Positions 2,208 through 28,011 of a stretch of 64,000 bases of DNA are shown here, piece after piece. Position 1 is the stretch's first letter, and every line of letters begins with the position of its first letter. The notes beneath the pieces are model-generated. The model did not search any database, had not been told where the DNA came from, and saw only the letters and a list, made by a program, of their open reading frames with translations. The stretch is from Streptomyces qinzhouensis (lineage in GTDB: Bacteria > Actinomycetota > Actinomycetes > Streptomycetales > Streptomycetaceae): positions 3,410,001-3,474,000 of the forward strand of contig NZ_CP042266.1 of NCBI RefSeq assembly GCF_007856155.1. The letters are read 5' to 3'. The position numbers were made by a program, and so were the translations under genes.

Positions 2208-2281
2208 GCCTCCTTAGCTCAGCTGGCCAGAGCAACGCACTTGTAATGCGTAGGTCGTCGGTTCGAATCCGACAGGGGGCT
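2208..2281 (+). tRNA. tRNA-Thr (anticodon TGT), integration site
   Basis: A full 74-nt cloverleaf. The 7-bp acceptor stem pairs 2208-2214 with 2274-2280, the D stem is GCTC/GAGC, the anticodon stem ACGCA/TGCGT closes a loop with TGT at 2242-2244, and the T arm has the TTCGAAT loop. The 3' CCA is not encoded. The last 42 nt of the gene are repeated at 18153 and 27461, marking it as the attachment site for the mobile elements to its right. The element restores the gene end, so the tRNA should still be functional. Confidence 0.97.
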
Positions 2282-2322
2282 CTGAAGGACCCCAGGACTC
2301 ACTCGCCGTGACCTGGGGTTTT
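2240..2322 (+). repeat. attL of element 1: 83-bp direct repeat
   Basis: Starts in the tRNA-Thr anticodon loop and runs through the tRNA end into the hairpin behind it (CCCCAG/CTGGGG arms at about 2290-2318). It is identical over 83 bp to 27461-27543. The shorter middle copy at 18153-18197 matches only the tRNA part. The crossover must lie within the shared 45-bp core (2239-2283); the extra 40 bp means element 1 carries its own copy of the tRNA terminator. Confidence 0.9.
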
Positions 2323-2326: not shown

Positions 2327-3715
2327 TTACCAGATGCGCCTGCGACGCCGGGCGCGGGCTTCCTTGCTGCTCGTGGTCTCAGTTTTGGTCTCAGAAGCGG
2401 GTTCGGCGGTGGGGAAGAATGTGTCTCCCATCCGCTGCATGGCGTCCTTCGAGAGGGTGGACCGGCCCTTGACGTAGCGGCGGGTCTGACTGACCTGGGT
2501 GTGCCGGAGGATTTCCATGATGGTCACCAGGTCCACTCCCAGCTCGTTCAGGATCGTGCCCGCGGTGTGACGGCTGCCGTCGTACAGACGGCGGTCGCTG
2601 ATACCCGCCTCCTCCAAGAGCTCCTTGAATTCCTCCCAGTCCGCTCGGGGGTCGAGCGGCCGGCCGTCCGGTCGCGTGAACACGGCGTCGCACTCCTCCC
2701 AGATGTCGTCACCAGCCGCGGCCCGTGCTTCTGCCTGCCGGGCCCTGTGCTCGCGCAGATGGGGGACGAACGGCGACGGGATGGGTACGGGGTTCCGGCT
2801 CTTCTTGGTCTTGGGCCGGGTGAAGACCAGTCCGCCGTTCTTCCTCTCCGGGCAGGCGCTCGCGTGCCCCTTGCAGGTCTTCGGGCAGGGCTTGGGACAG
2901 CCCCGCTTGTAGGTCCGGTGTGTGCCGCAGTCAGCCGGGCAGGGCTCGAACCGGTGCAGCCGGGTGCCGCAGGCGTGAGGGTCCGCGCAGCCGTGGCGCC
3001 AGGTGAGCCGCTGGAGCTGCCAGCGCGGGTGGAACAGCTCGGCTTCGAGATCGACGTACGCCCACCGCAGCCCCAGCGTCTCGCCCTGCCGGAAGCCCAT
3101 GCCGACACCGACGATCCACCGCATGAACGTGGGGCGTTTTGCCGCTGCCTCCAGGAACGCGTGCGCCTGCTCCTGGGTGAACGGATTGGCCTCGGTCTCG
3201 TCCACCGTCGGCGGATCAACGAGCGTGGCCACGTTCTCGCCGATGATCCGGCGTCGGTGGGCGATCTTCAGGGCCCGCGACAGGATGCGGTGCACCTTGA
3301 GCACATGTGAAGGAGCGTGTCCCTCATCCAGCATGACCCGGTACATCTTCTCCAGATGCTCCGGGGCGAGCTTGTCGAGCCGGTGTCGTCCGATGCCGGG
3401 GACGATGTCGTTGCGGGTCTTGGACCAGTAGTCGTCCAGGGACCGCGGCTTGAGCTTCAGGCTCGCGATGTCGGTGAGATAGGTGTCCATCCAGGCCGCT
3501 ACGGTCGGGACGCGTCCGGCCTTGGGCGCGCGCTTCTCGTCCCGAAGCTTCTCCAGCTCTTTGACCTTGCGGCGGACTTCCGGCTCGGTCTTGGCTGTGC
3601 GGTGGCGCCGGTCCGGGCTTCCGTCGCTCTTGACGCCCATCGTGACGCGGCCGTGCCACCGGCCGTCGCTTCCCTGGTAGATGGACGATTCCATGTTCGG
3701 CTTGCGGGGGCTCAT
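2327..3715 (-). CDS. int: Tyrosine recombinase (integrase) of element 1
   Basis: A 462-residue site-specific recombinase that inserts and, with Xis, excises the element at tRNA-Thr. The SAM-like arm- and core-binding part covers roughly residues 70-165 and the catalytic domain 175-435. Visible active-site residues are R209 (GFRQGE), R382 with H383, H405 (LRHTQ) and the nucleophile Y414 (RRYVKG). The box II H-x-x-R reads D379-x-x-R382. Residues 243-288 form an insertion with eight cysteines, likely metal-binding; similar insertions occur in pSAM2-type integrases. The gene stops 4 bp from the 83-bp repeat, the usual AICE arrangement. ATG start with a GGAGGAAG site. Confidence 0.95.
   Translation of the reverse strand: MSPRKPNMESSIYQGSDGRWHGRVTMGVKSDGSPDRRHRTAKTEPEVRRKVKELEKLRDEKRAPKAGRVPTVAAWMDTYLTDIASLKLKPRSLDDYWSKTRNDIVPGIGRHRLDKLAPEHLEKMYRVMLDEGHAPSHVLKVHRILSRALKIAHRRRIIGENVATLVDPPTVDETEANPFTQEQAHAFLEAAAKRPTFMRWIVGVGMGFRQGETLGLRWAYVDLEAELFHPRWQLQRLTWRHGCADPHACGTRLHRFEPCPADCGTHRTYKRGCPKPCPKTCKGHASACPERKNGGLVFTRPKTKKSRNPVPIPSPFVPHLREHRARQAEARAAAGDDIWEECDAVFTRPDGRPLDPRADWEEFKELLEEAGISDRRLYDGSRHTAGTILNELGVDLVTIMEILRHTQVSQTRRYVKGRSTLSKDAMQRMGDTFFPTAEPASETKTETTSSKEARARRRRRIW
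2375..2395. repeat. Candidate left arm-type site of element 1
   Basis: Two GGTCTCAG octamers, 12 bp apart start to start, lie inside the 3' end of int, 91 bp from the att core. The same 21-bp unit with one change occurs at 18017-18037 near the right end of element 1. Paired repeats at these positions are typical integrase arm-binding sites; that role is inferred. Confidence 0.6.
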
Positions 3716-3973: not shown

Positions 3974-4020
3974 CGACTGTCTCCCTCGGGGAGTCGGGCC
4001 CTCGGGCTCCTTTGGAAGTC

Positions 4021-6521: not shown

Positions 6522-6610
6522 GCTGGGGCTCCAGTTCTCGTGCTGGAGCCGGGGCGGCCGCACATCCTTGGCGAGACGGGGCGGTCGCCCCGGCGCATGT
6601 GCGGGGGCGG

Positions 6611-7503: not shown

Positions 7504-7511
7504 GGGGCTCC

Positions 7512-7997: not shown

Positions 7998-8089
7998 AAC
8001 GGGGTCCCTTCAACAGGGCGGACGACCCCTCGTGGTGAGGTACCGCCCGCTCGGGTGGGGTGACGCTGTGTGGATCCAGTGGGGTGCCG

Positions 8090-8203: not shown

Positions 8204-8219
8204 GCTGTCTGTGGCCTTG

Positions 8220-10343
8220 TCAGGCGTGGTCGGGGTGGACGTAGACGGAGTGCGGGCCACGGTCGCGGTAGACCAGCGCGCGGCTGTCGGTCGCCGTCTT
8301 GAGTCCGGCCCGCACGGTCTTGCGGTCCTTGCCCACCATGTCGGCGACGGCCGACGGCTTCATGCCGTCCGGCCCGGCGGCCTTGATCGCGTGGATCGCG
8401 ATGGGCAGCCAGTCCGGGCCCGCCCCGGCGCCGTTGCGGAATGCCGACAGGTTCAGCCCGGGCGTCTGCTCCGGCTCCGGCCCGGCGGGTGCGTCCGGTT
8501 CGGGGGCGGTGGCGAACCGGGCGTCGATCTGGGCCATGAACTGTGCGGCGAGCGTGTCCTCGTCGCCCGGTTCGCCCGACACTGCCGGGGCCGCGGGCGG
8601 CTCGGTGGTGGTGCGGTGCGCGGACAGGTTCAGCCCGCCCGCCCGGGGCGTCGCCGTGGCGCACACGGCGGGCGGCTCCGGGGTGTGGTCGTTCATCCAG
8701 GCGGTGCGGGTGTGGTCCCAGCGGCGGGCGTAGTCGGCTCCGGCTGCCTTGGCGGAGAGGGCGTCAAGGGTGGGGTGGCGGTCGCTGGTGGTGTGGACGA
8801 TGTCGCGGATCTGGTTGGGCAGGATCCGCCAGGACTTGAAGAGGGCGGCGGGGCTCTCGGGCGTGGCCATGAATCCGGCGCCCTTGTAGGGGGCCTGATC
8901 CGTGCGCAGGCCGCGGGAGCCGGGGAACTGTTTGGCCAGGTCCATGCCTTCCTTCTCGCCTCCGGTGAGCGCGACGCGGACCTTGGCTTCGCGGCGGATC
9001 ATCAGGTTTCCGAGCACGCTGCCGGTGGCACCGAGGGCGGTCAGGACGGTGCGGATGCCCATGGCGCGGGCGATGCGGATGACTTCGAGGATCTTCTCGG
9101 CGAGCCTGCGGAGCGCACGGTCGGGGGAGGCGAGGATCTCGGCCCCTTCGTCGATCACGATCATAATCTGGGGGATGCGGTCGCTGACGGGAAGCAGGTC
9201 GGTGTTCGCCTGTGCCATGAGGTCCTGGTAGGCGGTCTTGCGGTGCTTGGCGATCCGCACGGCGGCCGTGAGCATGAGCATGGCTTCGTCGTAGTCGGCG
9301 GCGAGCCAGTCGACCCCCGGCCGCACCACCGTGCCACCGCTGTCGCCGGTGAGGGCGGGGCGGACCCAGGGCAGGCCCGCGCTCCCGGCGTTGAGGTCGA
9401 TGACCCAGGTCAGGACGTCGGTGGTGCGGGCGAACCCGGCGAGGATCGTGTGGGCCATGTTCGTCTTGCCCGAACCGGTCGGACCGACCACCAGCGCGCA
9501 CTGCTCGCGCAGGTACGCGAGCACTTCACGGCCGTCGGTCCGCACGCCCCAGGGGATCCCGGTGTGAAGGGACAACGGGGTGTAGTCGGTGGGGTAGGTG
9601 ATCTCCTCGGCCAGGACGTTCACGGTGGTGACGTCGATCAGGACCCGGCCCTGGTCGATCCCGGCGGTCGCGGTGGCGGTGCAGCCATGGGGCAGGCGGG
9701 CGTCCGCGGAGAGCTGGGGCGCGTACTGGGCGATCCGCTCGAAGGTGACCCCGCCGGGCGGGAGTTCGGCGTCGATCGTGAACCCCGTGTTCGTGGGCCA
9801 CATTTCGACGGCGAGGATCCGCACGCTGACCCCGCACACGCGGTGGATGCGGTCGGCCCACTCGGCCGCGATCGCCCGGCGTTCGGCGGACAGTTCGCGG
9901 GCGACCTGCCGCTCCGCAGCCGCGATCGCTTCCAGTTCCCGGGCCTCTTCCCGCAGGAGGGTGGCGCGGGCGGAGGCGCCGATACCGGCCCCGAGGGCGG
10001 CGAGGGACCCGAGGGCGGTCCAGGTGAGGGGGCCGGTGGTGATGGCCCAGGTCGTCCACCCGGCCCCCAGCAGCCAGGACGCGGCGCGCATGCCGACGGT
10101 GCGGGCGGAGAGCCGGTCACGGAGGCTGGTGACGGTGTGACCGACGGCGCCGGCCGCGCCGATGGTGAGGGCCCAGCCGGGGGGCATGCCGGTGGCGGCC
10201 CCGGTCGTGGCCACGGCCAGACACCCGCTTGTCGCGGACAGGGCGCCGGTCACCGGTCCGTGACCGGCCGTCCAGTCCCACACCGGCCCCGGCGCCTTCC
10301 GCTTCGCCTTCGGTTTCGTCTTCTTGGCGGTGGTGGTGGTCAT
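8220..10343 (-). CDS. traB: TraB-type FtsK/SpoIIIE DNA translocase
   Basis: A 707-residue conjugation motor. Four hydrophobic segments lie within the first 125 residues, then a helical linker, then the ATPase with Walker A GPTGSGKT (287-294) and Walker B MIVIDEG (394-400). The last 65 residues form a winged helix (SAVADMVGKDRKTVRAGL), matching the gamma domain that reads octamer repeats in the clt locus. TraB forms hexameric rings that pump double-stranded DNA between hyphae; no relaxase is needed. It starts 2 bp after the upstream gene ends. TraB-type translocases normally have all these parts, so the gene looks intact. Confidence 0.93.
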   Translation of the reverse strand: MTTTTAKKTKPKAKRKAPGPVWDWTAGHGPVTGALSATSGCLAVATTGAATGMPPGWALTIGAAGAVGHTVTSLRDRLSARTVGMRAASWLLGAGWTTWAITTGPLTWTALGSLAALGAGIGASARATLLREEARELEAIAAAERQVARELSAERRAIAAEWADRIHRVCGVSVRILAVEMWPTNTGFTIDAELPPGGVTFERIAQYAPQLSADARLPHGCTATATAGIDQGRVLIDVTTVNVLAEEITYPTDYTPLSLHTGIPWGVRTDGREVLAYLREQCALVVGPTGSGKTNMAHTILAGFARTTDVLTWVIDLNAGSAGLPWVRPALTGDSGGTVVRPGVDWLAADYDEAMLMLTAAVRIAKHRKTAYQDLMAQANTDLLPVSDRIPQIMIVIDEGAEILASPDRALRRLAEKILEVIRIARAMGIRTVLTALGATGSVLGNLMIRREAKVRVALTGGEKEGMDLAKQFPGSRGLRTDQAPYKGAGFMATPESPAALFKSWRILPNQIRDIVHTTSDRHPTLDALSAKAAGADYARRWDHTRTAWMNDHTPEPPAVCATATPRAGGLNLSAHRTTTEPPAAPAVSGEPGDEDTLAAQFMAQIDARFATAPEPDAPAGPEPEQTPGLNLSAFRNGAGAGPDWLPIAIHAIKAAGPDGMKPSAVADMVGKDRKTVRAGLKTATDSRALVYRDRGPHSVYVHPDHA

Positions 10344-18016: not shown

Positions 18017-18037
18017 GGTCTCAGTTCTGGTCTCAGA
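18017..18037. repeat. Candidate right arm-type site of element 1
   Basis: A near-copy (20 of 21 bases) of the paired GGTCTCAG unit at 2375-2395, same orientation, starting 2 bp after the DUF218 stop codon and 115 bp before the att core. Confidence 0.6.
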
Positions 18038-18152: not shown

Positions 18153-18197
18153 ACTTGTAATGCGTAGGTCGTCGGTTCGAATCCGACAGGGGGCTCT
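18153..18197 (+). repeat. Internal att core (attR of element 1, attL of element 2)
   Basis: A 45-bp copy of the tRNA-Thr 3' end (matches 2239-2283). The 5' half of the tRNA is absent, so this is not a tRNA gene. The sequence after it differs from the other two copies, marking the start of another element. Confidence 0.92.
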
Positions 18198-18279: not shown

Positions 18280-18475
18280 CCCGGTCTGCGTGAGCGATGC
18301 GTGAGCGGTTTCGAGCCTGTTCGTCATGGAGCTGGATCATGTCCTCGACAGTCTTGCGGACGCCCGTGCCGGTGAGAACGTCGCGTATGCGGGCCGCGCC
18401 GTCTTCATCCAGATGTGGATCTCCGACCAGTCGGAGCAGGAGGTGCCGCGGGTCCTCCGCGGCAAGTAGCCGACT
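18280..18475 (-). pseudogene. C-terminal fragment of a prenyl diphosphate synthase
   Basis: On the minus strand, right behind the terpene synthase, an open stretch reads LLAAEDPRHLLLRLVGDPHL, then DEDGAARIRDVLTGTGVRKT and VEDMIQLHDEQARN. This matches the C-terminal helices of FPP/GGPP synthases. The Asp-rich catalytic motifs and any start codon are missing, so it is a remnant, cut off at the end of the element. Such an enzyme would have supplied substrate to the two terpene genes next door. Assignment is by pattern. Confidence 0.5.
18287..18308. repeat. Candidate left arm-type site of element 2
   Basis: Two TGCGTGAGCG units 11 bp apart, 89 bp after the internal att core. A copy with one change lies at 27324-27345. 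The position mirrors the arm repeats of element 1 although the sequence is different. Confidence 0.6.
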
Positions 18476-18501
18476 GGTGCCGGGTGACGATGCTTCCGGC
18501 G

Positions 18502-19509
18502 TCAAGGGGTGATGAGCGACGTCGGGTAGTCCTCGACCCACGCGTCTTCGTAGCGGGGAGTGTCCAGGCGATACCAGCTTTCGATAGCGCTCACGACATA
18601 CGTGCGGTGGAGAACGTGCGTTTCGACGTCCTGCTGGAGGCGGCCGAAATCGGGGAGGTTCTCCACGAGCTGGACGAGCTCCGCGACATCGGCGTCGTGG
18701 ATGCGCAGGAGTTCGCGGTAGGCGTCGTCCAGGGACAGGCCGAGCTGGTCCTGGAGGGTCAGCACCATGTTGATGTTCTCCCCTGCGGCGTCGGCTTGGC
18801 GCAGGTCCTTCTCCAGCGTGTACGCGTCGTTCTGCCAGACCGTGAGTTGGGCCAGGAGAATGTCGATGCGGCGCAGGACCGGATGGTCCTCCACCTCGTC
18901 GGGCAGGACCAGGTCGAGCTCGACATCGACGAAGCGCAAGGCCATCAGGATCGCGATGGTGTGCCCCCGGATCTCGGTGTTCTCCGAGATGGAAGGTGTC
19001 CGGCGCTGATGGCGGAAGGCCCCTTCGAGGGGGAGGTACGACACAAAGTCGTCGACTGTCGCGGCAAAACGGTCGAGCCATACAGGCGGCATCAACTCGG
19101 CTGCCATACGCCCGATTTCCGCAATGCTGTGGTGTAGTGGCGGGTCGCTGTCCTGTGCCGGCGCGCCGTACAGGAGATCGACGCTCCGTCGGCGCAGGGA
19201 GTCGAGCTCGTGTGACGGGAGCAGACCGTAGTAGTCGTCGAAACACGTCATCCAGGTGTAGGCGAGCCCGATGAGTACGGCACGTCGAGGGGAACGGGGG
19301 TGGGGGAACCCCCGGGAGGCTGCCCAGGTCAGCCGCTGGTTGCGGTACTTCTCCCGGTCGGCCTCGCTGAGGTGGGTCATCGAGTCGCACCATCGGTAGT
19401 AGGTGTCCTGCACGCGGTCCGCGTGGGGGCACAAGCCGTCGGCGTAGTACCTGGTGGGCAGACGGAAGCGACTCAGCGGCACGGTGACGGACGCGGGTGT
19501 GGAGGGCAT
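18502..19509 (-). CDS. Class I terpene synthase
   Basis: A 335-residue terpene cyclase. The metal-binding motif reads D91-D92-Y-Y-G, lacking the usual last acidic residue. The NSE triad is N227-D-A-Y-T231-L-E-K-D235. R181 lies exactly 46 residues before N227, the known place of the diphosphate sensor in bacterial cyclases, and R319-Y320 form the C-terminal pair. These features point to an active enzyme that ionises a prenyl diphosphate; the product cannot be predicted. It lies 18 bp behind the squalene/phytoene-synthase-like gene, in one operon. Confidence 0.87.
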   Translation of the reverse strand: MPSTPASVTVPLSRFRLPTRYYADGLCPHADRVQDTYYRWCDSMTHLSEADREKYRNQRLTWAASRGFPHPRSPRRAVLIGLAYTWMTCFDDYYGLLPSHELDSLRRRSVDLLYGAPAQDSDPPLHHSIAEIGRMAAELMPPVWLDRFAATVDDFVSYLPLEGAFRHQRRTPSISENTEIRGHTIAILMALRFVDVELDLVLPDEVEDHPVLRRIDILLAQLTVWQNDAYTLEKDLRQADAAGENINMVLTLQDQLGLSLDDAYRELLRIHDADVAELVQLVENLPDFGRLQQDVETHVLHRTYVVSAIESWYRLDTPRYEDAWVEDYPTSLITP

Positions 19510-19527
19510 GGGCGCATTCCTTTCGTG

Positions 19528-20289
19528 TCAGCCGGCCGGAGCGACCGGAAGCGGGGCGAGCAGGGCGAGGTGGGCGGCCGTGGCCGGTGGCGTGCAGAAG
19601 TCGCGGGCAGGACCAGGAGGCAGGGCGGCGACATAGGCATCGGCGAGCGTCATCTGCCTTTTGGCGTAGGCGCTCATCCGGTCGGCACTCCAGCCCTCGG
19701 GCCAGAAGTCCACGCCACGAGCCCGGTCCCGGCCGGCGTCGATGTAGATGTTCACAGCCTGTACGGCGCGGCCGTAGCCGATGCTGTGCCAGCGGTTGGT
19801 GCGCGTGCCGTCGTACCAGGACCACAGGTCACTGAGGAGCAGCACCATGGTGGAGGCGACCGCGTACGTGTAACGGTCCAGATCTGCCTCGTTCCGCACA
19901 TGCCAGCCGGACAGAGCCCAGTCGGCCATGCGTTCGGCCATGGTGGCTGTCGTCTCATGGATGCGCCCGGCGATATCGACGGGTGCTTGAAGAGCCCACT
20001 CACCGATGCGCTGGGTCACCTCCGGCAGCAAGGCGCCGTGGTCCGCCGCGAGCCATGAAAAGTCGTCCGCCACCCATTGCTGCTGGAAGACCCGGCTGAT
20101 GCCGTGCAGGATCACCGCTTTGGAATCCGGCGGCAGCTGCGGGTCGTCTTCGACCTCGTCGATGGCGCGCAGGGACAGATAGGTCGACGTGATCGCCCGG
20201 TTGAGGGGCAGCGGCATCTGCATCGCCGGCTCGTACCAGGTGGTGCTGTAGGCGCGGAACATGCGGTGGGCTTCATCGAGGCTGGGCAT
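19528..20289 (-). CDS. Squalene/phytoene-synthase-like protein
   Basis: A 253-residue all-alpha protein. Two Asp-rich motifs fit the trans-prenyl head-to-head synthase fold: D44-E-V-E-D48 in the SLRAIDEVEDD segment, and a later D-x-x-x-D in VQAVNIYIDAGRDRARG, which parallels NILRDVGEDARRG of phytoene synthases. It is shorter than typical synthases (about 300 residues). ATG 20289 with GGAAGGAA is the start; the longer reading to 20535 is not supported. It may couple prenyl units or act as an unusual terpene cyclase; the substrate is unknown. Confidence 0.75.
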   Translation of the reverse strand: MPSLDEAHRMFRAYSTTWYEPAMQMPLPLNRAITSTYLSLRAIDEVEDDPQLPPDSKAVILHGISRVFQQQWVADDFSWLAADHGALLPEVTQRIGEWALQAPVDIAGRIHETTATMAERMADWALSGWHVRNEADLDRYTYAVASTMVLLLSDLWSWYDGTRTNRWHSIGYGRAVQAVNIYIDAGRDRARGVDFWPEGWSADRMSAYAKRQMTLADAYVAALPPGPARDFCTPPATAAHLALLAPLPVAPAG

Positions 20290-20595
20290 ATCGCAGTTCC
20301 TTCCCGAGAGAGGCCGCAGCCTGGATGGAGGAGTCCAGGTCGCGCGCCCTGTGGTGGTGTGTCTGCCGCTGAGACGTGGAAGGGAGCAGGTCCTTCTGCC
20401 TCCGATAGCAACAAGGCTCCGCAACAACGCCCGGCCAGGATGCGGCCGGGTACCTCGACGGGGGTTCGGGCGGATCGTCAACAGGTCCTCGTTTCCACGG
20501 ATGCGTTCACAACCTGTTCCGACCCGAATTACCATTGGGTACAGTCCAGTTCACAACTGGAAGTCCAGGCTTGAAAGAGCCTTGCCACCACGAAT
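20290..20595. promoter_or_regulatory. Divergent intergenic region, terpene operon versus XRE gene
   Basis: A 306-bp gap between two divergent transcription units. It holds short symmetric elements such as CAGTTCACAACTG near 20550 and GTTGCACGCGATGCAAC near 20600, candidates for regulator binding. No gene seen. Confidence 0.45.
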
Positions 20596-22020
20596 GTGTT
20601 GCACGCGATGCAACCTTGCGCGCTTGTGAAGCGGGGCGATCAACCCTCTCGCCCCGGGGACCGAGGAGGGCACACCATCCCCCGAACTCCCAATACGCGT
20701 CTGCGTCACCTGCTCGACGAATGCGGGTGGAGCGCTGCGCAACTCGCCGCCGCGGTCCGCATCGTCACCGGCGAACAGCGACATCCCCTGACCTGCGACC
20801 GGTCCACGGTATGGCGATGGCTGGAGGGGGCACGGCCCAGGCCCCTCGCCGCGACCTGCCTGCTGGAGGCACTCTCCCGCCGACTCAACCGGACGGTGAC
20901 TCCCTATGACGCCGGCCTGACCAGAGCCCCGGCCGCATGGCCCGGCCCTTCGCTCGACGCAGATCCCCTGCGCAGACTCGTCGACCTGGCCCGAGGCGAA
21001 CTGGACCCCGGCCGCCGGATGCTGCTGGGTTCAGGTGTGTACCGGCTGACCGGCCTCAGCGTCCCCGGCCGGCACGAACTGGGCAGCTCGCCCAGACACC
21101 ACTCCAAGCCGTCACCCCTCCGGGTCGGACGGGGGGAGTTGACGGCACTCCGTACCATGATCGCGATCTCCTCCGGCGCGGTGGCCGCTTCGGGAGGAGG
21201 CCAGGGCCGAGCCGCTCTGGCCGCCTGCCTGGCGTACGACGTCGCCCCCTGGCTCAGCGCCACCGCCACCGAGGCCGTCCACGAGCAGCTCCTCTCGGCA
21301 GCGGCCCAGCTCGCCGTCCTGGCCGGCAACATGTGCGCCGACGACCACATCCACATCATCGCCACCCTCGTCCGCGACGACGACCGCCGCCCCCGCCTGC
21401 ACAACGAAGCCCGCCGCGCCCAAGCCGAGGCTCGCACCGTCGAAGCCGACTACGGTCTGCGCTCAGTCGCGCCCGGCGACGGCACTGCCGCCATGGTCAT
21501 CGACATGCTGTTCTTCCTGATCACCGCCGCCGCGAACTGGCACGCCGGGAAACAGCACGCTCAGCAAGCAGCTGCCGCACACCAGGCCGCCATGCACCTC
21601 CGCGCGGCCTACCGCACCGCTGCTGAACACCCCATAGCAGTACTCCACCAGCAGGGGCGCTGCCTGGCCCCTTCCTGGCAACGCCACCACGCCACGACCC
21701 TGCGCCACGCACCACCCGACCTGGCCAACCGCATCCTCGCCGAACCCGGCTGGCCTGCCCTCGCCGCCACTCTCGCCGAAGCCCAGGCCGCCGGTCACAA
21801 CCCCACCGCCCTGCTCACCCACGCTGCAACCGGACGCGAACTGGACACAGCTGAAAACCTGAGCGATGTCCTCATATGGCGACTCCGGCGAACAGCCGAC
21901 CTCCCCGCGGATCCACCCAACACCCACAGTCAGCAAGCCAAGGGCATCCACACCACGACACCAACACGGTCAGCCCACCCCACAACCAAATCCCCGAACG
22001 GTTACCCGCGACAACGCTGA
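20596..22020 (+). CDS. Chimera: XRE-type regulator fused to relaxase C-terminus
   Basis: A 474-codon frame made of two unrelated parts. Residues 28-247 match the Streptomyces XRE regulator type, with STVWRWLEGARPRP and EALSRRLNRTVTPYDAGL, much like the regulator at 25939. From A248 (ADDHIHIIATLVRDDDRRP) it becomes a mobilization relaxase: HIH metal motif, RRAQAEARTVEADYGL, and the typical ending WPALAATLAEAQAAGHNPTA with VLIWRLRRTADLPAD. The fusion lies in a segment both families could share. The expected start is ATC at 20677 behind GACCGAGGAGGG, so the native ATG may be lost; upstream ATGs in frame lack a good ribosome site. The relaxase tyrosine part is absent, so it cannot nick DNA. Confidence 0.75.
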   Translation: MLHAMQPCALVKRGDQPSRPGDRGGHTIPRTPNTRLRHLLDECGWSAAQLAAAVRIVTGEQRHPLTCDRSTVWRWLEGARPRPLAATCLLEALSRRLNRTVTPYDAGLTRAPAAWPGPSLDADPLRRLVDLARGELDPGRRMLLGSGVYRLTGLSVPGRHELGSSPRHHSKPSPLRVGRGELTALRTMIAISSGAVAASGGGQGRAALAACLAYDVAPWLSATATEAVHEQLLSAAAQLAVLAGNMCADDHIHIIATLVRDDDRRPRLHNEARRAQAEARTVEADYGLRSVAPGDGTAAMVIDMLFFLITAAANWHAGKQHAQQAAAAHQAAMHLRAAYRTAAEHPIAVLHQQGRCLAPSWQRHHATTLRHAPPDLANRILAEPGWPALAATLAEAQAAGHNPTALLTHAATGRELDTAENLSDVLIWRLRRTADLPADPPNTHSQQAKGIHTTTPTRSAHPTTKSPNGYPRQR

Positions 22021-22167
22021 ACTACAAGAACCGGCGGCAAGACAGCCGACGGTGTTCACTTGCCGCGAGAATCACGACGGAGAGAGTGATCCCTACACTT
22101 CGCTCACTCCGCGGAATTCCAGGAAACACGGCTGACCACCTGCGCACTCGCAGCTGACCTTCTCTGC

Positions 22168-22698
22168 TCAGAAGGTGGAGGTCAGGGGGACGATGTCGAA
22201 CACCGCTGCTTCGTCCTTGCCGTGAAACACGAAGAGCCTCATCAGAGTCCCGCTGATGAGGCTGTTGCGGAGGCACCAATACCCGTCGCTGGGCTTGGGG
22301 TCGGAGACGGTTCCGTCCGCATTCTGCCGCCACAGCGCCTTCTTGCACAGTCTCAGATACTCCAGATAGCTGCCCAAGATGCACCCGTCCTTCTCCGTGT
22401 TCCGCACGATTCCGTAGCCCTCGGCATTCACGGAGGGCTGGACGAACCGCTGACGGAGATCACCCGACGTGCACTTCCGGAACTTCAGTGACCCGTTCTT
22501 CGATGTCGGCTTCGCCTTCTCGTAGGTGGCGCAGAGGGACGCGCCCTCGATGGTGGACTTGATCAGAAAAGGGGTCCCGGGTGTGGGGAAACCGGTCGTG
22601 GCGGCCTGCGCGGGTGCGCCTGCGATAAGGCCGAAGGTGCAGACGGTCAGTGCGGCGGAGGCGAGCGCGAGACCACAGCACGTCGGGGATTTCGGCAT
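22168..22698 (-). CDS. Secreted protein, possibly beta-trefoil
   Basis: A 176-residue protein with a clear signal peptide (MPKSP start, hydrophobic core, APAQAATTG cleavage region) and AGGAG before ATG 22698. The mature part has six cysteines and alternating short strands (FLIKSTIEGASLCATYEKAK, GYGIVRNTEKDGCILGSYL), which suggests a ricin-like beta-trefoil, but the QxW repeats are not clear. It is likely exported and disulphide-bonded. Cargo of element 2; function unknown. Confidence 0.7.
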   Translation of the reverse strand: MPKSPTCCGLALASAALTVCTFGLIAGAPAQAATTGFPTPGTPFLIKSTIEGASLCATYEKAKPTSKNGSLKFRKCTSGDLRQRFVQPSVNAEGYGIVRNTEKDGCILGSYLEYLRLCKKALWRQNADGTVSDPKPSDGYWCLRNSLISGTLMRLFVFHGKDEAAVFDIVPLTSTF

Positions 22699-22871
22699 GA
22701 AGGCTCCTGCTATATAGCGGTTAACCCTTGGAAGGTAAATATCCCCATCTGCATCCATGCTCGTACCTAATGCACCCGAAATCGCTGGAACGGAGGCCCC
22801 GCGCGACGCCCCGCCGCCGGGGCCCGCGCCCGGCGCACGCCGGACCGCGACCGTAAAGGCGCTGTCACCAC

Positions 22872-22912
22872 AGCAACGCCCCCGCCAATAGCCCCTCGGC
22901 GGGGGCGTTGCT
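22872..22912 (-). terminator. Strong hairpin ending the radical-SAM operon
   Basis: Perfect 15-bp arms (22872-22886, 22898-22912) with an 11-nt loop, 9 bp past the stop codon of the 112-residue protein gene. Confidence 0.8.
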
Positions 22913-22920
22913 CGCGGTTG

Positions 22921-23259
22921 TCAGTACGTCGTGCTGAAGCTCCCGGCCCTGACGTCGGTGAGGTACCGCTGATAGAGCGGCCCGGCAACATGCGCCGCGC
23001 GGGCCTGTGTGGGCGCTGCCTGCTCGATCTGGTGGTGCGCGGCGGCCTTCAGGTGCGCGGCCCAGGCGAGTACGTGCTGCTGGGCGGTGCGCCCGCACTC
23101 GTCGGGCTCACCGGGGAGGCAGAGCGGGAGCGGGGGGCCGATCTTGTTTGCGGCGTGGCGGATGTATCCGGCGATCACGGCCCACTCCGCTTCGGTCCGC
23201 TGTACGGCGTGCTCGCCGCCCTGGGTCTCCCACGGTCCGAAGTCGTCCCCGTGGTCCAT
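22921..23259 (-). CDS. 112-residue protein beside the radical SAM gene, unknown
   Basis: Helical protein (EAEWAVIAGYIRHAANKIG, AAHLKAAAHHQIEQAAPTQA) with two cysteines and the tail RAGSFSTTY. AGGGAG precedes ATG 23259. It starts 21 bp after the radical SAM stop and ends the operon. It could be an accessory protein or substrate of that enzyme; nothing in the sequence decides this. Confidence 0.65.
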   Translation of the reverse strand: MDHGDDFGPWETQGGEHAVQRTEAEWAVIAGYIRHAANKIGPPLPLCLPGEPDECGRTAQQHVLAWAAHLKAAAHHQIEQAAPTQARAAHVAGPLYQRYLTDVRAGSFSTTY

Positions 23260-23280
23260 GCGTGCTCCCTGCGGTTGTCG

Positions 23281-24189
23281 TTACGCGGGTGCGGCGATGG
23301 TAGCGGGCCCGGCCTGGGGGCTGTCGGCTTCTGCCGGGTCGCAGTGCTGGACCGTGGGTACGCAGGGCTGGCAGGGGCCGCACATGGGGAGGAACTGCGG
23401 AGGCGTGCACGACTGTGCCCCCTCCCCGTGTACGGCTGTGATGTCCGCGGTCACGCGGGTTGTTCCGGGGCCTGCCCAGATGTCGGCGAGCGGTGTCTCG
23501 CGGACGTTGCCCATGGTGAGGAACCGGCCCAGGACGCACGGCCAGACGTCTCCGGTGGGTCCGATGGCGCACTTCTCGTGGGCGCAGTGTCCGCACAGGT
23601 CGGCGATGGCCGGGGCGGCTCCGCGGCTGCCTCGTCCGAAGGCCCGTGTCCGGTCACCGCCGACTTCCCGTACGCCCAGGGCGAGCAGGTCCTGGGCTGC
23701 TTCAGCGGTGCGCTGACCTTGGCGTACCGCGACGACTCCGCCCCGGACCGGGATGCCCAGGGCGAGAGCTGTCTGTACGTTCGCCCGGGTGCGGCGGTGG
23801 GATCCGCGGAGGTTGGTGACGGCGTCGTGGTCGTCGGCCGTATCGGAGTAGTACGAGGTCGCGAGCTTGACGCCGCACTGCCGGAAGATGTCCCAGAGGT
23901 GGTCTCGGATGTGGGTCAGGTTCGAGAAGACCTCGATGCCGAGCCCCTTGCCGTGGGCATGGGTGATGAGGTCATCGAGGTGGGGGTACAGCGTTGGTTC
24001 CCCGCCGATGAACTGGACATCGGCGGCACCCATGTCGGCAAGCTGAGTGATGACGTTCTGCCAGTCCTGCGGGGTCATCGTGCCGTGGTTGCCCTGCGGG
24101 CCGGAGTCGGCGTAGCAGTGATCGCAAAACTCGTTGCATAGGCCGGTGACCTCCAACCACGCAAACCGTAACTTCGTTGCAGCAGTCAT
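23281..24189 (-). CDS. Radical SAM enzyme with SPASM-like C-terminus
   Basis: A 302-residue enzyme. C18-x3-C22-x2-C25 in LEVTGLCNEFCDHCYADSG binds the first iron-sulphur cluster, and QFIGGEPTLYPHL is the GGE-type SAM motif. The C-terminal part is rich in cysteines (LCGHCAHEKC, VWPCVLGRF, then MCGPCQPC), fitting auxiliary clusters of the SPASM or twitch type, often seen in enzymes that modify peptides. AAGGAG before ATG 24189. It lies 105 bp behind the NUDIX gene in the same direction. Substrate unknown. Confidence 0.88.
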   Translation of the reverse strand: MTAATKLRFAWLEVTGLCNEFCDHCYADSGPQGNHGTMTPQDWQNVITQLADMGAADVQFIGGEPTLYPHLDDLITHAHGKGLGIEVFSNLTHIRDHLWDIFRQCGVKLATSYYSDTADDHDAVTNLRGSHRRTRANVQTALALGIPVRGGVVAVRQGQRTAEAAQDLLALGVREVGGDRTRAFGRGSRGAAPAIADLCGHCAHEKCAIGPTGDVWPCVLGRFLTMGNVRETPLADIWAGPGTTRVTADITAVHGEGAQSCTPPQFLPMCGPCQPCVPTVQHCDPAEADSPQAGPATIAAPA

Positions 24190-24294
24190 CCGAATCTCCT
24201 TGCTGGTGAGGTTGGGCCGACCGGGCCGTCGAGGCTGTCGGCGGGTGTGGACCCGCCCCCGCCGGGAACACGCGTCGTCCGACGGGGGCGGGGG

Positions 24295-24708
24295 TCAGGG
24301 CGTCGTACAGGGCGCGAGACCGAGGTACCGGCGTACGGGCTCGTAGATGCCGGGGACGGTCACGTCCACGAACCAGGTGGGGACCCACGCCACGTCGATG
24401 ACCTCGCGGGGCGAGGCCGGCACCGCGGTACCGGATACGACGGCGCAGGCGATGTAGATGAGGTAGCGGCCGGTGAGGTAGTGGGGCGCGGCGCCGATGC
24501 GTTTGACGGGTGCCACAATCAGCCCTGTTTCCTGTTCGGCCTCGCGCACGGCGGTCTGCTCGGCCGTCTCGCCGTGCTCGGCCTTTCCGCCGGGGAAGAC
24601 CCACCGGGGGCCGTCCGGGGCGCGGCGCTCCACGAAGAGCACAGAGCCGTCGGCCGGGCTGGTGATGACCGCGAGAGCCACGGGCGTGGTGACGGGGTCG
24701 GTGGTCAT
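24295..24708 (-). CDS. NUDIX hydrolase
   Basis: A 137-residue NUDIX protein that would cleave a nucleoside diphosphate linked to another group. The box runs from G41 (GGKAEHGETAEQTAVREAEQ) to L63, ETGL; one metal-binding glutamate of the REUxEE core is Q59, a mild departure. ATG 24708 overlaps the methyltransferase stop by ATGA. In this operon it might clean up or regenerate a nucleotide cofactor; the substrate is unknown. Confidence 0.88.
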   Translation of the reverse strand: MTTDPVTTPVALAVITSPADGSVLFVERRAPDGPRWVFPGGKAEHGETAEQTAVREAEQETGLIVAPVKRIGAAPHYLTGRYLIYIACAVVSGTAVPASPREVIDVAWVPTWFVDVTVPGIYEPVRRYLGLAPCTTP

Positions 24709-25514
24709 GTGATGCCGACGCCCCCGTAGGTGTGGACCGTGGATCTGTCGTCGGGGTCGGCGCCGGTGGGGTACCACTGGCTGACAGGGACCAGTCCCGG
24801 GCCGACGGCCGTGAGGTCGCCGAAGAAGGCGGCAATGTCCTCGAAGCCGCGCGCGCAGCTGGTGAGCCCGGCCTTGCGGAGGATGCTCTCGGCCTGGTGG
24901 ACGAGTGGAGGGTTGTCCTCGTAGGTGAGGTGGGAGAGGACGAGCACGCTCCCGGGCACCAGGGCTTCCATGATCCGGCGCATGCAGAGGTGGGGCTGGT
25001 CCTGGTCGTCGATGGTGTCGAGAACTGCGGTCGCCACGACGGCCACGGGATACCGGAGGTCGAAGTGTGCGTCGGCCTCGGCGAGCAGGGTCTCGGTCCG
25101 GCGCAAGTCGGTCTGTGCAGCCCGGACGTGGCGCCCTCGGAGCCAGGGGTCCCAGCGGGCGACGACGATCGGGTCGGTGTCGGCGTAGAGGGTCCGGGCC
25201 CGGTCTCCCGTGTAGAGGGCGGCTATCGAGTGTGTGTCCACACCGGTGTGCGGGGGCAGGCCGGGGCCGATGTCCAGGACTTGGTGGAGACCCAGGGTCT
25301 CGGTGGCGTAGGTGACGGCCCGGAGGTGGAAGGCCCGCCCGGCCCTTGCCGCGGCGCGGGCCGGGTAGCCGATGTCCGTCAGGCGGCGTACGACATCCTC
25401 GTCGGCCTCGTACGAGTCGTAGAAGTCCTGGCCACCGAGCGCGGCATGGTGGACTCGGGCGCTGCTGACCGGGGCGTGGAGGGAGTACGAGAGCGGGGGC
25501 GGAGGCGGGGTCAC
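24705..25514 (-). CDS. SAM-dependent methyltransferase, DUF574 type
   Basis: A 269-residue protein of the actinobacterial Methyltransf_19 (DUF574) family. Visible parts: FYDSYEADEDVVRRLTDIGY, the SAM-binding strand VLDIGPGLPPHTGVD, the acidic YADTDPIVV and LTYEDNPPL. Start at GTG 25514, overlapping the small membrane protein stop by GTGA. Streptomyces carry many copies, often next to XRE regulators, and their targets are mostly unknown. Confidence 0.88.
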   Translation of the reverse strand: MTPPPPPLSYSLHAPVSSARVHHAALGGQDFYDSYEADEDVVRRLTDIGYPARAAARAGRAFHLRAVTYATETLGLHQVLDIGPGLPPHTGVDTHSIAALYTGDRARTLYADTDPIVVARWDPWLRGRHVRAAQTDLRRTETLLAEADAHFDLRYPVAVVATAVLDTIDDQDQPHLCMRRIMEALVPGSVLVLSHLTYEDNPPLVHQAESILRKAGLTSCARGFEDIAAFFGDLTAVGPGLVPVSQWYPTGADPDDRSTVHTYGGVGIT

Positions 25515-25621
25515 GGCATCCACCCGCCCTGCCGGCCCTCCAGCCACAGCGTCAGCCAGACGTACAGGCCGGAGACGGTGAACACGACGGCGGCAACTCC
25601 GGCGCGGTCGATCCACTTCAT
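25511..25621 (-). CDS. 36-residue membrane microprotein
   Basis: MKWIDRAGVAAVVFTVSGLY continues into VWLTLWLEGRQGGWMP, a single transmembrane helix with a short positive start. Its start overlaps the 69-residue gene's stop (ATGA) and its stop overlaps the methyltransferase start (GTGA), so it is embedded in a tightly coupled operon. Confidence 0.7.
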   Translation of the reverse strand: MKWIDRAGVAAVVFTVSGLYVWLTLWLEGRQGGWMP

Positions 25622-25827
25622 GCGGTGCCTCCGGCCAGTTCCAGGATCTGGTGGGCCAGCGCGAGGGCCTGATCGGGCGGGACGGCGGCCCCCGTCTCCT
25701 CGACGACATGTCCATGCCTTCGGAGCCGGAGAGGAATCCAGACCGCGCCGTCGACCGGCCGTCGGACGGCCTTCCCGGCGAGGGTCAGGGTGTACCCGTG
25801 GTCGGGTTCAGGGGGAGAGTTGGTCAT
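25618..25827 (-). CDS. 69-residue small protein, first gene of the operon
   Basis: Reads MTNSPPEPDHGYTLTLAGKA, then VWIPLRLRRHGHVVEETGAA and a helical end ALALAHQILELAGG. No membrane helix. It lies 111 bp from the divergent XRE regulator and overlaps the next gene by ATGA. The ribosome site is weak. Function unknown. Confidence 0.6.
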   Translation of the reverse strand: MTNSPPEPDHGYTLTLAGKAVRRPVDGAVWIPLRLRRHGHVVEETGAAVPPDQALALAHQILELAGGTA

Positions 25828-25938
25828 GCCGGAAGTGAACGGGCCCGGAGCCCGGAGCGGCAGCAGGTCGGGCCGGACGGCTTGTTGAGCATGTTGATTG
25901 GCAGCCCCAGCCGAAGCCAACGGCCTTAACGTTCAGTC

Positions 25939-27318
25939 ATGAGCCGGTCACGCAACTCCCGCTTGGCGCGGGTGATTGAGGAGTCAGGACTCACCTACGA
26001 CGCGATCGCCCGCGCCGTCGTACACGTCGCCGCTTCAGCGGGCGACAACACCCTGCGTACCAGCAGGTCGACGGTGTCGTACTGGGTGAGCGGAACACCC
26101 CCCAGCCCGGCGACCGCCCGGTATCTGTGCGAGGCCCTCAGCCGGAGACTCGGCCGGGTCCTCACCCCGTATGATCTCGGCCTGTCCGGCACCCCCTCTT
26201 CCGGCCCGGTCGACATCGGGCTTACCGTCGACAGTGACCCGGTGGAGACGCTGGGGGAACTCGGGAGGGCCGACATCGAGCGACGCAGCTTCCTCACCGC
26301 CTCCGCGTACTCCGTAGCAGGCGCCGCCCTCCCCCTCGGCACAGCCGGGGAGATGAAGGCACGGACGGCACGAGCACTCGGCGGGGGAATCGCCGGGCCT
26401 GCGGAGATCGCCACCGTGCGGGACATGGTGGCGATGCTGACCGCCATCGACGGCCGGCATGGCGGTCAGTACGGCCGCAACACCGTCGTGCAGTACCTCA
26501 TGGACGACGTCATCCGCCTGTGTCGGGCGCGGTGGCAGTCCGAGGCTTTGCACAGTCAGATGTACTCCGCGGCCGGATCCCTCGCCTACCTCGCGGGTTG
26601 GAAAGCCTTCGACGCGGGCGAACACGGGCTGGCCCAGCGCTACTACCTTCAAGCGTTCGGCCTGGCCCAGCGTTCGGCTCCGCTCGATCAGGCGTACGTC
26701 CTGCGGATCCTCGCGCACCACGGCATGGACAACGGCCGTCCCGAGCACGTTCTCGGCCTGGCCGACGCCGCACTCCGGCTGAGTCGTGGAACAGATCCCG
26801 CGACTCAGGCCCTCTTCGTCAGCTGCCGCGCCCGCGCGCTCGCCGTTTCCCGGCAAGGGGCCGAAGCGTTACGGGAGGCGGATCGCGCCCGGGAACTCGC
26901 CGCCACTGGCGAGGTTGCGGAGATCACCGGCTGGTCGAGGAATTGGGGCTCCCCGCACTCTACGGTGGACTACCACCGGGCTGCGATCAACGCCCGAATC
27001 GGCAATCACTCAGCCGCCGAGGCCCACTACTCCGCCGCGCGTCGCCGCTGGAGTACGGCATCCCATCAGCGAGTAGCGGCGCTCTCAGCGGCCTCCGAAG
27101 GACACGCGCAGCTCTCCCAAGGCCGGATCGAACAGGCCTGCGCGACCTGGACCGGAGCGCTCGATGCCATGGTCGGCATCCGGTCGTCTCGCACGATCAA
27201 AGCCGTGCAGGCCATACGGTCGGACCTTGCGCAGTTCCGCGCACGCAGCGCGCGGCCGGCGGCAGAACTGGACGACCGGGCGCGGGCGTGGCTCCGTCTC
27301 GAAGGCGCAACCATGTAG
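25939..27318 (+). CDS. XRE-family regulator with TPR-like C-terminus
   Basis: A 459-residue regulator. Residues 5-85 hold the DNA-binding part (STVSYWVSGTPPSPATARYL, EALSRRLGRVLTPYDLGL); a short linker with RRSFLTAS follows, and residues 190-440 are helical repeats of tetratricopeptide type (AGEHGLAQRYYLQAFGLAQ, QGAEALREADRARELA). Such proteins sense small molecules or peptides through the repeats. It is divergent from the microprotein-methyltransferase-NUDIX-radical SAM operon and is its likely controller. Its N-terminus is paralogous to the chimera at 20596. Confidence 0.85.
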   Translation: MSRSRNSRLARVIEESGLTYDAIARAVVHVAASAGDNTLRTSRSTVSYWVSGTPPSPATARYLCEALSRRLGRVLTPYDLGLSGTPSSGPVDIGLTVDSDPVETLGELGRADIERRSFLTASAYSVAGAALPLGTAGEMKARTARALGGGIAGPAEIATVRDMVAMLTAIDGRHGGQYGRNTVVQYLMDDVIRLCRARWQSEALHSQMYSAAGSLAYLAGWKAFDAGEHGLAQRYYLQAFGLAQRSAPLDQAYVLRILAHHGMDNGRPEHVLGLADAALRLSRGTDPATQALFVSCRARALAVSRQGAEALREADRARELAATGEVAEITGWSRNWGSPHSTVDYHRAAINARIGNHSAAEAHYSAARRRWSTASHQRVAALSAASEGHAQLSQGRIEQACATWTGALDAMVGIRSSRTIKAVQAIRSDLAQFRARSARPAAELDDRARAWLRLEGATM

Positions 27319-27323
27319 CGCGA

Positions 27324-27345
27324 TGCGTGAGCGGTGCGTGAGCGG
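27324..27345. repeat. Candidate right arm-type site of element 2
   Basis: Paired TGCGTGAGCG units, 21 of 22 bases equal to 18287-18308. It begins 5 bp after the XRE stop codon and ends 115 bp before the right att core, exactly the gap seen for element 1. Confidence 0.6.
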
Positions 27346-27460: not shown

Positions 27461-27543
27461 CTTGTAATGCGTAGGTCGTCGGTTCGAATCCGACAGGGGG
27501 CTCTGAAGGACCCCAGGACTCACTCGCCGTGACCTGGGGTTTT
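27461..27543 (+). repeat. Right-most att repeat (attR of the composite)
   Basis: The 83-bp repeat identical to 2240-2322, containing the tRNA-Thr 3' end and its terminator hairpin. It has no tRNA 5' half. The DNA beyond it is the original chromosomal right flank. Confidence 0.92.
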
Positions 27544-27623
27544 CGCTTTTCCGGGGTGGTTGTCCGGGTCGCGAGGGTTCCTGTTCCGTGTTGGCCTGTC
27601 CAAGGGGAGCTCAAGGGGAGCGC

Positions 27624-28011
27624 ATGAGCACAGCCGGCGTGCACAAGGGTGCGCGCGGGAGGCCGTCGAATCGCGGCCAGGCAGCTCGAATACGGCTCTG
27701 GCGGGATCGGACCGTGTGGACGACCTCGGACGGCGAGACCGTACGCATTCCGGCGCTGATCGGCGGAGACGCCAAGAGCTACCCCGAACCCGGCGTACTG
27801 GGTGACCCCAGGCTCCCGGTTCTGGAATCCATCCGAGACGGGCCCCGCCGGGCTCACTGTTCCTGCCTCGCACCAGAGGGACGGCGCATGACACCCGCCC
27901 GGACGAAGTCCTCTGCACCGCCGGACCGCACGACGTCGCCGCCGCCCTCGCCCGCGTCCACGGCGACGCACGCGCGTGGCTGACCGGCCAGCGGGCCCTT
28001 GTCGAATGGTG
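27624..28011 (+). pseudogene. Frameshifted small gene next to the att site
   Basis: The reading from ATG 27624 (MSTAGVHKGARGRPSNRGQA to VLESIRDGPRRA) looks protein-like to about 27850. The protein-like part then continues in another frame (LFLPRTRGTAHDTRPDEVLC, HDVAAALARVHGDARAWLTG) to a stop at 28011. A one-base deletion or sequencing error near 27850-27857 would explain it. No family recognised. Confidence 0.55.

Follow-up and report, generated by a model that had tools for sequence, protein, structure and literature searches.

The locus and its closest relatives

In Streptomyces, defective AICEs have been described, with several elements accreted in one tRNA gene and identical direct repeats; the same account covers different integrases at one site and element decay, and proposes cis-mobilisation (PMC9513070, in its passages on AICEs). 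In S. ambofaciens the integrative element pSAM2 directly adjoins a CIME, XSAM1 (PMC4891641), termed a putative prophage in a passage of PMC11195616. The attP of mycobacteriophage cluster J, as its description in PMC3706429 gives it, has a core of 44 bp that lies within a tRNA gene, roughly 100 bp away from where int ends, and a pair of 10-bp direct repeats on each side of the core.

The window (the whole stretch of Streptomyces qinzhouensis DNA analysed, 64,000 nucleotides) carries two elements, E1 and E2, in tandem in a tRNA-Thr gene. Its three tRNA-Thr cores are identical across 44 bp. E2 is the 9.3-kb cargo stretch bounded by the second and third cores, flanked, as a CIME is, by the same core as its neighbour. 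The features that define the two elements are as follows.

2208..2282, + strand: tRNA-Thr, anticodon TGT, the integration target (ARAGORN)
2240..2283, + strand: core copy 1, the 3' end of tRNA-Thr (direct repeat and sequence)
2327..3715, - strand: E1 tyrosine integrase, 462 aa (Pfam PF00589; integrase tree)
2374..2394, + strand: E1 left arm pair TGGTCTCAGTTTTGGTCTCAG, word GGTCTCAG, period 12, within the 3' end of int
18017..18036, + strand: E1 right arm pair GGTCTCAGTTCTGGTCTCAG, period 12
18154..18197, + strand: core copy 2, the E1/E2 junction (direct repeat)
18287..18308, + strand: E2 left arm pair TGCGTGAGCGATGCGTGAGCGG, TGCGTGAGCG twice, 89 bp inside the core
27324..27345, + strand: E2 right arm pair TGCGTGAGCGGTGCGTGAGCGG, 116 bp inside the core
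27461..27504, + strand: core copy 3, the right end of E2 (direct repeat)
27601..27622, + strand: CAAGGGGAGC pair, 96 bp beyond core 3

The word TGCGTGAGCG occurs four times in the window (starts 18287, 18298, 27324 and 27335), against 0.33 expected from shuffles, none of 100 of which reached four. Each end repeat of E2 consists of two 10-bp units with a period of 11, and both pairs are perfect. E1 has GGTCTCAG pairs in the same positions relative to its cores (2240-2283 and 18154). A sequence-only reading had given E2 end repeats of its own in the geometry of E1, and this is borne out, the pairs lying at matching places inside identical cores. Of the spacings then proposed, 89 bp stands and 115 bp is measured here as 116 bp (both to the 21-bp pair); the 91 and 115 bp given for E1 agree within 1 bp, depending on the core or repeat start chosen. 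The 22-bp paired repeat reported in E2 is present, but it is neither a single unit nor private to E2.

E2 has an attP-type layout, with paired direct repeats at fixed distances on both sides of a tRNA core, and resembles the cluster J attP in its 44-bp tRNA core and its 10-bp repeat pair on each side (PMC3706429). Cluster J differs in its repeat, TGCATAC..., and in the presence of int; a word common to several tRNA targets, as found here, is not part of its attP description in that source.

Arm words across genomes and integrases

The TGCGTGAGCG pair is present in 147 of 392 same-genus genomes, and a reversed-pattern control gave 0. A motif-only search returned 146 distinct sites (loci L013-L162; 153 before seven duplicates were removed), of which 132 adjoin a tRNA core or the 3' end of a tRNA. 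These comprise 76 left ends, 67 next to a complete tRNA and 9 next to just the core, together with 56 right ends. Right ends were called by a T-loop motif at 130-160 bp, which random places meet in 51 of 20,000 cases, and 54 of the 56 fall within one 4-bp range, 135-138 bp from that motif. Chance as the source of the pairs is ruled out by the shuffles, the reversed-pattern control and the random-place control.

The pairs occur at tRNA-Thr, Lys, Arg, Met and Val, near genes of one tyrosine-integrase superfamily. An integrase ORF of one family lies within 3.5 kb at 70 of 182 arm loci, which were gathered by motif or by the integrases themselves, and the search for integrases next to TGCGTGAGCG pairs at tRNA-Thr that the sequence-only reading had suggested did find them. 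In 44 of 83 rows the integrase C-terminus reads HA(S/P/A)LTQ, which is the arm pair read as protein. Among 20 foreign two-armed intervals, 16 have a core repeat, with left gaps of 71-93 bp and right gaps of 113-132 bp (113-122 bp if L197, whose core match is only 18 bp, is left out); the other four are L195, L198, L084 and L208, the last of which ended before its right core.

That the repeats have some other role, as regulator or replication sites, and lie near cores for that reason, would accommodate the 14 of 146 sites with no recognisable core nearby. Such a role is extremely improbable, given that the distances vary by no more than a few bp across tRNA genes of five amino acids, that integrase genes are close by, and that other integrase clades have other words in the same place. 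The TGCGTGAGCG pairs behave, judged by position and company, as arm-type tyrosine-integrase sites, and the paired repeats would be expected to bind integrase.

Across integrase clades the geometry stays the same and the arm word differs. Arm word is clustered on a tree of 158 integrases that keeps its long-branch rows: the 132 rows that have a word need 12 changes, where 50 shuffles average 58.8 and never go below 55, with words grouped by patterns written after the data had been seen. Counting rows without a word as a class gave 31 changes, against 82 shuffled. With the N-domain and the catalytic part treated separately, there were 7 versus 9 arm changes and 8 versus 7 tRNA changes, differences too small to separate the two in the 89 of 158 rows covered, from which the GGTCTCAG clade fell out and four long-branch rows were dropped.

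Relatives of the E1 integrase were found at tRNA-Thr with GGTCTCAG pairs, the exact pair being present in 15 of 29 of their loci. This supports the earlier suggestion that matching spacing with different sequence marks one integrase superfamily with different arm words. An AICE would carry int, a replication gene and an FtsK-like TraB; E1 contains int and a DUF3631 gene, and its AAA/FtsK match is weak (E 0.0075, below its cut-off).

The tandem order and identical cores invite the reading of E2 as a CIME of E1, whose integrase would excise E1 and E2 together, or E2 alone, via the common cores; AICE-defective AICE pairs have been proposed to move in cis (PMC9513070, passages on AICEs). We regard this as very unlikely. 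E2 ends in TGCGTGAGCG and E1 in GGTCTCAG, a joint circle would carry mismatched arms, and the E1 integrase is 26% identical to the TGCGTGAGCG integrase of L044. The N-terminal C-x-C ... C motif occurs in 21 of 25 aligned integrases, whereas the first cysteine of the E1 integrase is residue 243. Cis-mobilisation of E2 by E1 is not expected because the arm words differ; on the same ground E1 would be excluded as its mobiliser, and the ends of E2 would not be usable by the neighbour's integrase as those of a CIME are. The description of E2 as cis-mobilisable cargo is not upheld, since the sole adjoining integrase is that of E1 and integrase-free elements with two ends are rare. With pSAM2 and XSAM1 (PMC4891641) the likeness is the arrangement, an integrative element directly beside a CIME; that case differs in its size of 42 kb.

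Gene content of E2 and the probable loss of its integrase

Between its arms E2 holds the following features.

18334..18439, - strand: 3' fragment of a polyprenyl synthetase gene behind the left arm (74.5% DNA identity, 106 bp)
18502..19509, - strand: terpene synthase (PF19086; terpene synthase models below their cut-offs)
19528..20535, - strand: squalene/phytoene synthase-like protein (PF00494)
20596..22020, + strand: NsdA-family regulator (NF053720)
22168..22758, - strand: 196-aa protein, probably secreted, judging by its N-terminus (ORF; no Pfam match)
23281..24189, - strand: radical SAM/SPASM protein (PF04055, PF13186)
24295..24777, - strand: NUDIX protein (PF00293)
24705..25715, - strand: S-adenosyl methyltransferase, Methyltransf_19 (PF04672)
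25939..27318, + strand: NsdA-family regulator (NF053720, E 4e-95; no Pfam match), ending 5 bp short of the right arm

The left arm abuts the broken polyprenyl-synthetase gene. The identity of this fragment is to an annotated polyprenyl synthetase gene; it has protein matches of 42-51 residues in six plasmid records and no significant Pfam match. The earlier statement that E2 lacks a recombinase gene holds: none of the 10 ORFs scanned has a Pfam recombinase match, and an integrase profile found no significant remnant in 217 stop-to-stop segments of at least 15 aa (best E 0.15). The cognate integrase gene, present beside the same word elsewhere, is absent from E2. The scanned ORFs gave no match to transfer genes, and no TraB/FtsK-like gene was found, in which E2 differs from the AICEs as portrayed in PMC9513070. 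Four elements at tRNA-Thr (L487, L494, L495 and L504) share the arm word, core kind and geometry of E2 but, unlike it, have an integrase gene (that of L495 short at its end), a DUF3631 protein and a MobA/VirD2-like relaxase, whereas Pfam gave no relaxase or mobilisation gene among the 10 E2 ORFs. MobC was seen in L494 and not found in E2.

Of 52 tRNA-Thr left ends, two that lack an integrase share their contig with a right end (E2 and G145), and nine others without an integrase do not. Pairing required a right end with the same orientation and on the same contig; G041, G097 and G183, whose right end is on another contig, are counted as unpaired. For unpaired ends, integrase-free means no integrase within about 8 kb. 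Longer paired intervals were read over their first 20 kb, G145 excepted. An intact integrase is one ORF of at least about 850 bits without a second gene fragment; G085 (L495) is counted as intact despite its missing last part. Missing or broken integrases accompany lost right ends among tRNA-Thr elements, a pattern that looks like decay.

E2 might instead be a dedicated passenger whose arms and core would serve to recruit, in trans, the integrase brought by arriving TGCGTGAGCG elements. Neither its arms nor any of the cores shows a mismatch, and it retains no integrase scar; further integrase-free two-armed intervals exist (L197 at tRNA-Thr(TGT), L202 at tRNA-Lys, and the 27-kb interval in G145, which a truncated superfamily integrase gene adjoins in tandem); and possible helpers are at hand, a largely whole integrase being present at 4 of 10 tRNA-Thr(TGT) left ends (one of them, L495, without its C-terminal end). 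Decay is nevertheless likelier than a dedicated passenger class because only 2 of the 52 left ends are integrase-free with both ends. No Pfam family is common to E2 (10 ORFs), L197 (5) and L202 (5), which argues against a conserved passenger kind, and the other 391 genomes, with one or two candidate stretches scored in each, did not show E2 as a whole. We rate a passenger origin as unlikely. The same absence from the 391 genomes means that no integrase-bearing ancestor of E2 was seen. No empty tRNA-Thr site emerged: downstream loci of up to 1.5 kb and eight stretches of 17-20 kb showed little match to the window; downstream matches were mainly to the tRNA, the terminator and, in one genome, E2-like ends.

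The source genome contains three exact TGCGTGAGCG pairs, and no intact integrase of the TGCGTGAGCG arm type was found in it. Its superfamily matches include the E1 integrase (GGTCTCAG), a broken integrase in a TGCGTGAGCG relic at tRNA-Lys, and two distant matches, at 6.83 and 2.09 Mb, neither of them next to a TGCGTGAGCG pair. A full superfamily integrase at 4.256 Mb lies inside a 62-kb interval at tRNA-Thr(CGT). It had looked possible as a partner of E2, being a superfamily member with the TGCGTGAGCG row L071 in its clade; it is rejected on its interval's end pairs, CAAGGGGTGC/CAAGGGGAGC and CCAGGGGAGC/CAAGGGGAGC, which would be the arms of that integrase. These words are near-identical to the CAAGGGGAGC pair past core 3, which probably served a third element, since lost, as its left arm. 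No CAAGGGGAGC word turned up in the viral contigs searched. Phage mu1/6, a tRNA-Thr phage, is absent among the 30, 15 and 15 phage matches listed; it is named in a part of PMC12924846.

Discussion

We consider it likely that E2 is an orphan, derived from a TGCGTGAGCG-type element and left without its integrase, and that E1 arrived afterwards. E2 would have entered tRNA-Thr(TGT) at its 3' end through a TGCGTGAGCG-type tyrosine integrase that reads paired arms. The gene for this integrase normally sits directly inside the left arm; it would then have been lost, along with whatever transfer genes there were, so that the left arm came to adjoin a truncated cargo gene. Tandem accretion would later have placed E1, which brings its own integrase and the other arm word, between the tRNA and E2; E2 first and E1 second is the order we infer. 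Loss of the integrase, rather than original absence, is presumed. Against the orphan reading stand the lack of an integrase scar in E2, unlike many relatives, and the identical 44-bp cores and perfect arm pairs, which an old, decaying element would not be expected to show. As an orphan, E2 would be immobile alone and the E1 integrase should not move it, while excision in trans might be possible for an integrase that comes in with TGCGTGAGCG arms and a tRNA-Thr(TGT) core.

The locus resembles the AICEs of PMC9513070, as far as that account describes them, in that one tRNA gene harbours elements in tandem, the direct repeats are identical, the integrases differ and elements decay. Arm sites lie outside the AICE passages of that paper; in the present case they predict no mobilisation of E2 by its neighbour.

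More tentatively, and with less confidence than in the orphan origin, we propose a separable 'arm code' in Streptomyces-like elements. A 21-bp paired word would be common to integrases for the tRNAs of at least five amino acids, with other words in the same geometry in other superfamily clades; arm word and core would together decide which residents an incoming integrase wakes, and E2 would be an orphan excisable in trans by a TGCGTGAGCG tRNA-Thr integrase and not by E1. Because many integrases offer both an arm word and a tRNA target for comparison, the separation of arm from core specificity can be tested. For tandem arrays the prediction is that a neighbour is no help unless its arm word matches. 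Pair and core form a searchable signature that places both element ends to a few bp whether an integrase is present or not, and lets orphans be counted that integrase-based scans would miss.

Layout and gene content of the tandem elements

In the window (G000:C1 3410001-3474000), two elements lie in tandem 3' of a tRNA-Thr(TGT) gene, bounded by copies of the tRNA 3' end (cores), with two short direct repeats (an arm pair) just inside each core. E1 possesses an integrase and E2 does not.

2208-2282: tRNA-Thr(TGT), two elements downstream
2240, 18154 and 27461: three core copies, identical over 44 bp, matching the tRNA-Thr(TGT) 3' end
2327-3715: E1 integrase (PF00589)
2374 and 18017: E1 arm pairs, word GGTCTCAG, period 12
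18287 and 27324: E2 arm pairs, word TGCGTGAGCG, period 11, 89 and 116 bp inside the cores

A 31-bp stretch of the core has no further site at up to 3 mismatches in the whole source genome.

The cargo of E2 comprises a terpene synthase, a squalene/phytoene synthase-like protein, two NsdA-family regulators, a radical SAM/SPASM protein, a NUDIX protein, an S-adenosyl methyltransferase and small ORFs. Neither recombinase, relaxase nor MobC was found among the 10 E2 ORFs scanned, and an integrase profile found no match in 217 stop-to-stop segments of E2 (best E 0.15). Next to the left arm is what remains of a polyprenyl synthetase gene, a 3' fragment (74.5% DNA identity over 106 bp); it has short protein matches in six plasmid records and no significant Pfam match. 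This truncated piece suggests that the cargo was joined to the left arm by deletion or recombination. E2 as a whole unit was not seen in 391 other same-genus genomes, in each of which one or two candidate stretches were scored; the matches in that search were gene-sized pieces only. The NUDIX/methyltransferase stretch (window 24316-25473) has a 69% similar copy at 334826-335992 of the same genome.

The E2 arm word in other genomes

The exact TGCGTGAGCG pair occurs in 147 of 392 same-genus genomes, the reversed pattern giving no matches. Named genomes contribute at least 120 further stretches with the pair, and viral sequences 32. Loci L013-L162 (150 in number) contain 153 pair sites, 146 of them distinct: 67 left ends (tRNA side) with a whole tRNA upstream, 9 left ends with a core only, 56 right ends (far core) and 14 that are neither. 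The tRNAs at the 67 left ends are Thr CGT (25), Lys TTT (19), Arg CCT (11), Thr TGT (9), Met CAT (2) and Val TAC (1). Left-end distances have medians of 80-91 bp (whole range 58-113), and the right-end distance to the T-loop motif is 135-138 bp in 54 of 56; that motif lies anywhere within 130-160 bp of 51 in 20,000 random places. For tRNA-Thr there are 52 left ends (51/392 genomes) and 36 right ends (35/392), with none of either in the reversed control. Just inside the right arm at tRNA-Thr right ends the sequence is alike across many elements (GGACGGG...GGCAC), perhaps marking sites of an excision factor.

Arm words follow integrase clades

Of 182 arm loci, 70 have an ORF of the tyrosine integrase family no more than 3.5 kb away, many of the others being right ends or short loci. 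The arm pair is encoded at the integrase 3' end in 44 of 83 rows, where it reads HASLTQ, HAPLTQ or HAALTQ. A paired 9-mer scan behind integrases showed the same architecture in other clades with different words, for example GGTCTCAG, GGTGGAGCA, GGCCAGCA and GCCGAGCA; Streptomyces phage TurkishDelight, 47% identical, combines a tRNA-Lys core with GGTGGAGCA.

The arm word clusters strongly on a tree of 158 integrases, with 12 changes over 132 word-bearing rows against a mean of 58.8 (least 55) in 50 shuffles, the word classes having been defined after data inspection and near-copies among rows pushing toward clustering. With the 26 wordless rows counted as a class there are 31 changes versus 82, and none of 200 shuffles was as low. 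No single clade unites the TGCGTGAGCG rows, and TGCGTGAGCG with tRNA-Thr(TGT) occupies at least three separate positions. The E1 integrase falls in the GGTCTCAG clade; its relatives at 29 loci lie at tRNA-Thr in 26 and have an exact GGTCTCAG pair in 15.

Of 25 aligned integrases, 21 (all except E1 Int, L044, L035 and L155) have a C-x-C ... C stretch, in most cases at residue 9, which may be a metal-binding site of the arm-binding domain. At two loci, L489 (G363) and L499 (G158), a 4.4-4.8 kb insert near the left end splits the TGCGTGAGCG integrase directly behind the presumed catalytic tyrosine, at an identical point in both genomes. The L489 insert encodes a tyrosine recombinase (PF00589), a small HTH protein and an 803-aa ORF, and that of L499 similar 375-aa and 847-aa ORFs; a literature search found no paper clearly about such an insert.

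Integrase loss and right-end loss

Integrase status was checked at all 52 tRNA-Thr left ends (including L200, L203, L206, L208, L425 and E2). Where the right end is on the same contig (n = 23), the integrase is intact in 14, broken or interrupted in 7 and absent in 2 (E2 and one in genome G145); where it is not (n = 29), the integrase is intact in 8, broken in 12 and absent within ~8 kb in 9. The difference (intact or not, paired against unpaired ends) gives Fisher p = 0.024, contig breaks explaining some unpaired ends. These counts show that integrase loss accompanies right-end loss, and that E2 belongs to a small class which is integrase-free with both ends present. The G145 member (L490/L533/L534, contig G145:C2) spans 27 kb at tRNA-Thr(CGT); it has both arm pairs but lacks an integrase of the family. 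Directly after it, in tandem, come a truncated integrase gene of that family and a degenerate core.

The arm scan yielded two further integrase-free intervals, with Pfam covering 5 ORFs each: L197 at tRNA-Thr(TGT), where the right core matches over 18 bp only and the cargo includes ricin-B-lectin-like and NHL proteins, and L202 at tRNA-Lys (SpoIIE and GAF proteins). Relatives L487, L494, L495 and L504 (4 to 6 ORFs each scanned) encode a MobA/VirD2-like relaxase and a DUF3631 protein, hence the ancestor of E2 may have been a mobilizable element. The 10-kb TGCGTGAGCG element L425 (G019, 1-10200), at tRNA-Thr(TGT), has a broken integrase; its C5 DNA methylase and Eco29kI/GIY-YIG-like protein are likely a restriction-modification cargo.

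Other elements in the source genome

A TGCGTGAGCG relic occupies G000:C1 (the source contig) 3602326-3615523 at tRNA-Lys(TTT) (3615449-3615523, minus strand). Its left arm is 89 bp inside with one mismatch, its right arm is exact (3602326), the integrase between them is broken and a right core was not recognised. Thus neither TGCGTGAGCG element found in this genome has an intact integrase. A 62-kb interval, G000:C1 4254557 to ~4316280, starts at tRNA-Thr(CGT) (4254557-4254631). Imperfect CAAGGGG-type pairs lie inside both of its cores, at 97 bp from the left one and ~120 bp from the right one (4316236), and its superfamily integrase (4256369-4257910) is complete. The same word recurs as a CAAGGGGAGC pair at window 27601, 96 bp past the E2 right core, and ~200 bp there (79%) resemble the beginning of the 62-kb interval at its left core. 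The shared word indicates that a third element probably once occupied tRNA-Thr(TGT), leaving a scar at 27505-27640. The genome thus shows three arm words. Two more distant family matches (6830334-6831521 and 2092625-2093266) have no tRNA in the surrounding stretches inspected and no TGCGTGAGCG pair.

Proposed history and mobility

From tyrosine-integrase biology, the arm pairs would be bound by the integrase N-domain. We propose that E2 arrived via a TGCGTGAGCG integrase whose gene was subsequently lost, and that E1 would have inserted later, between the tRNA and E2. E1 should not move E2, because the outer arms of E2 bear the wrong word. An incoming element could excise E2 if its arms were of the TGCGTGAGCG kind and its core that of tRNA-Thr(TGT); a largely whole integrase is present at 4 of 10 left ends with that core.

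Passages of PMC9513070 describe element accretion and decay at Streptomyces tRNA genes, and a Streptomyces element adjoining a CIME is known (PMC4891641). In mycobacteriophages, a tRNA core flanked by paired 10-bp arm repeats is described in part of PMC3706429. No relevant paper on the TGCGTGAGCG word or its complement was among those listed in a search that covered few subscription journals, so this does not show the word to be unpublished; the literature searched contained no paper treating cis-mobilizable elements, integrase and arm-type sites together. E2 itself falls within an already known kind of element, and the new part may be an arm word common to several tRNA targets.
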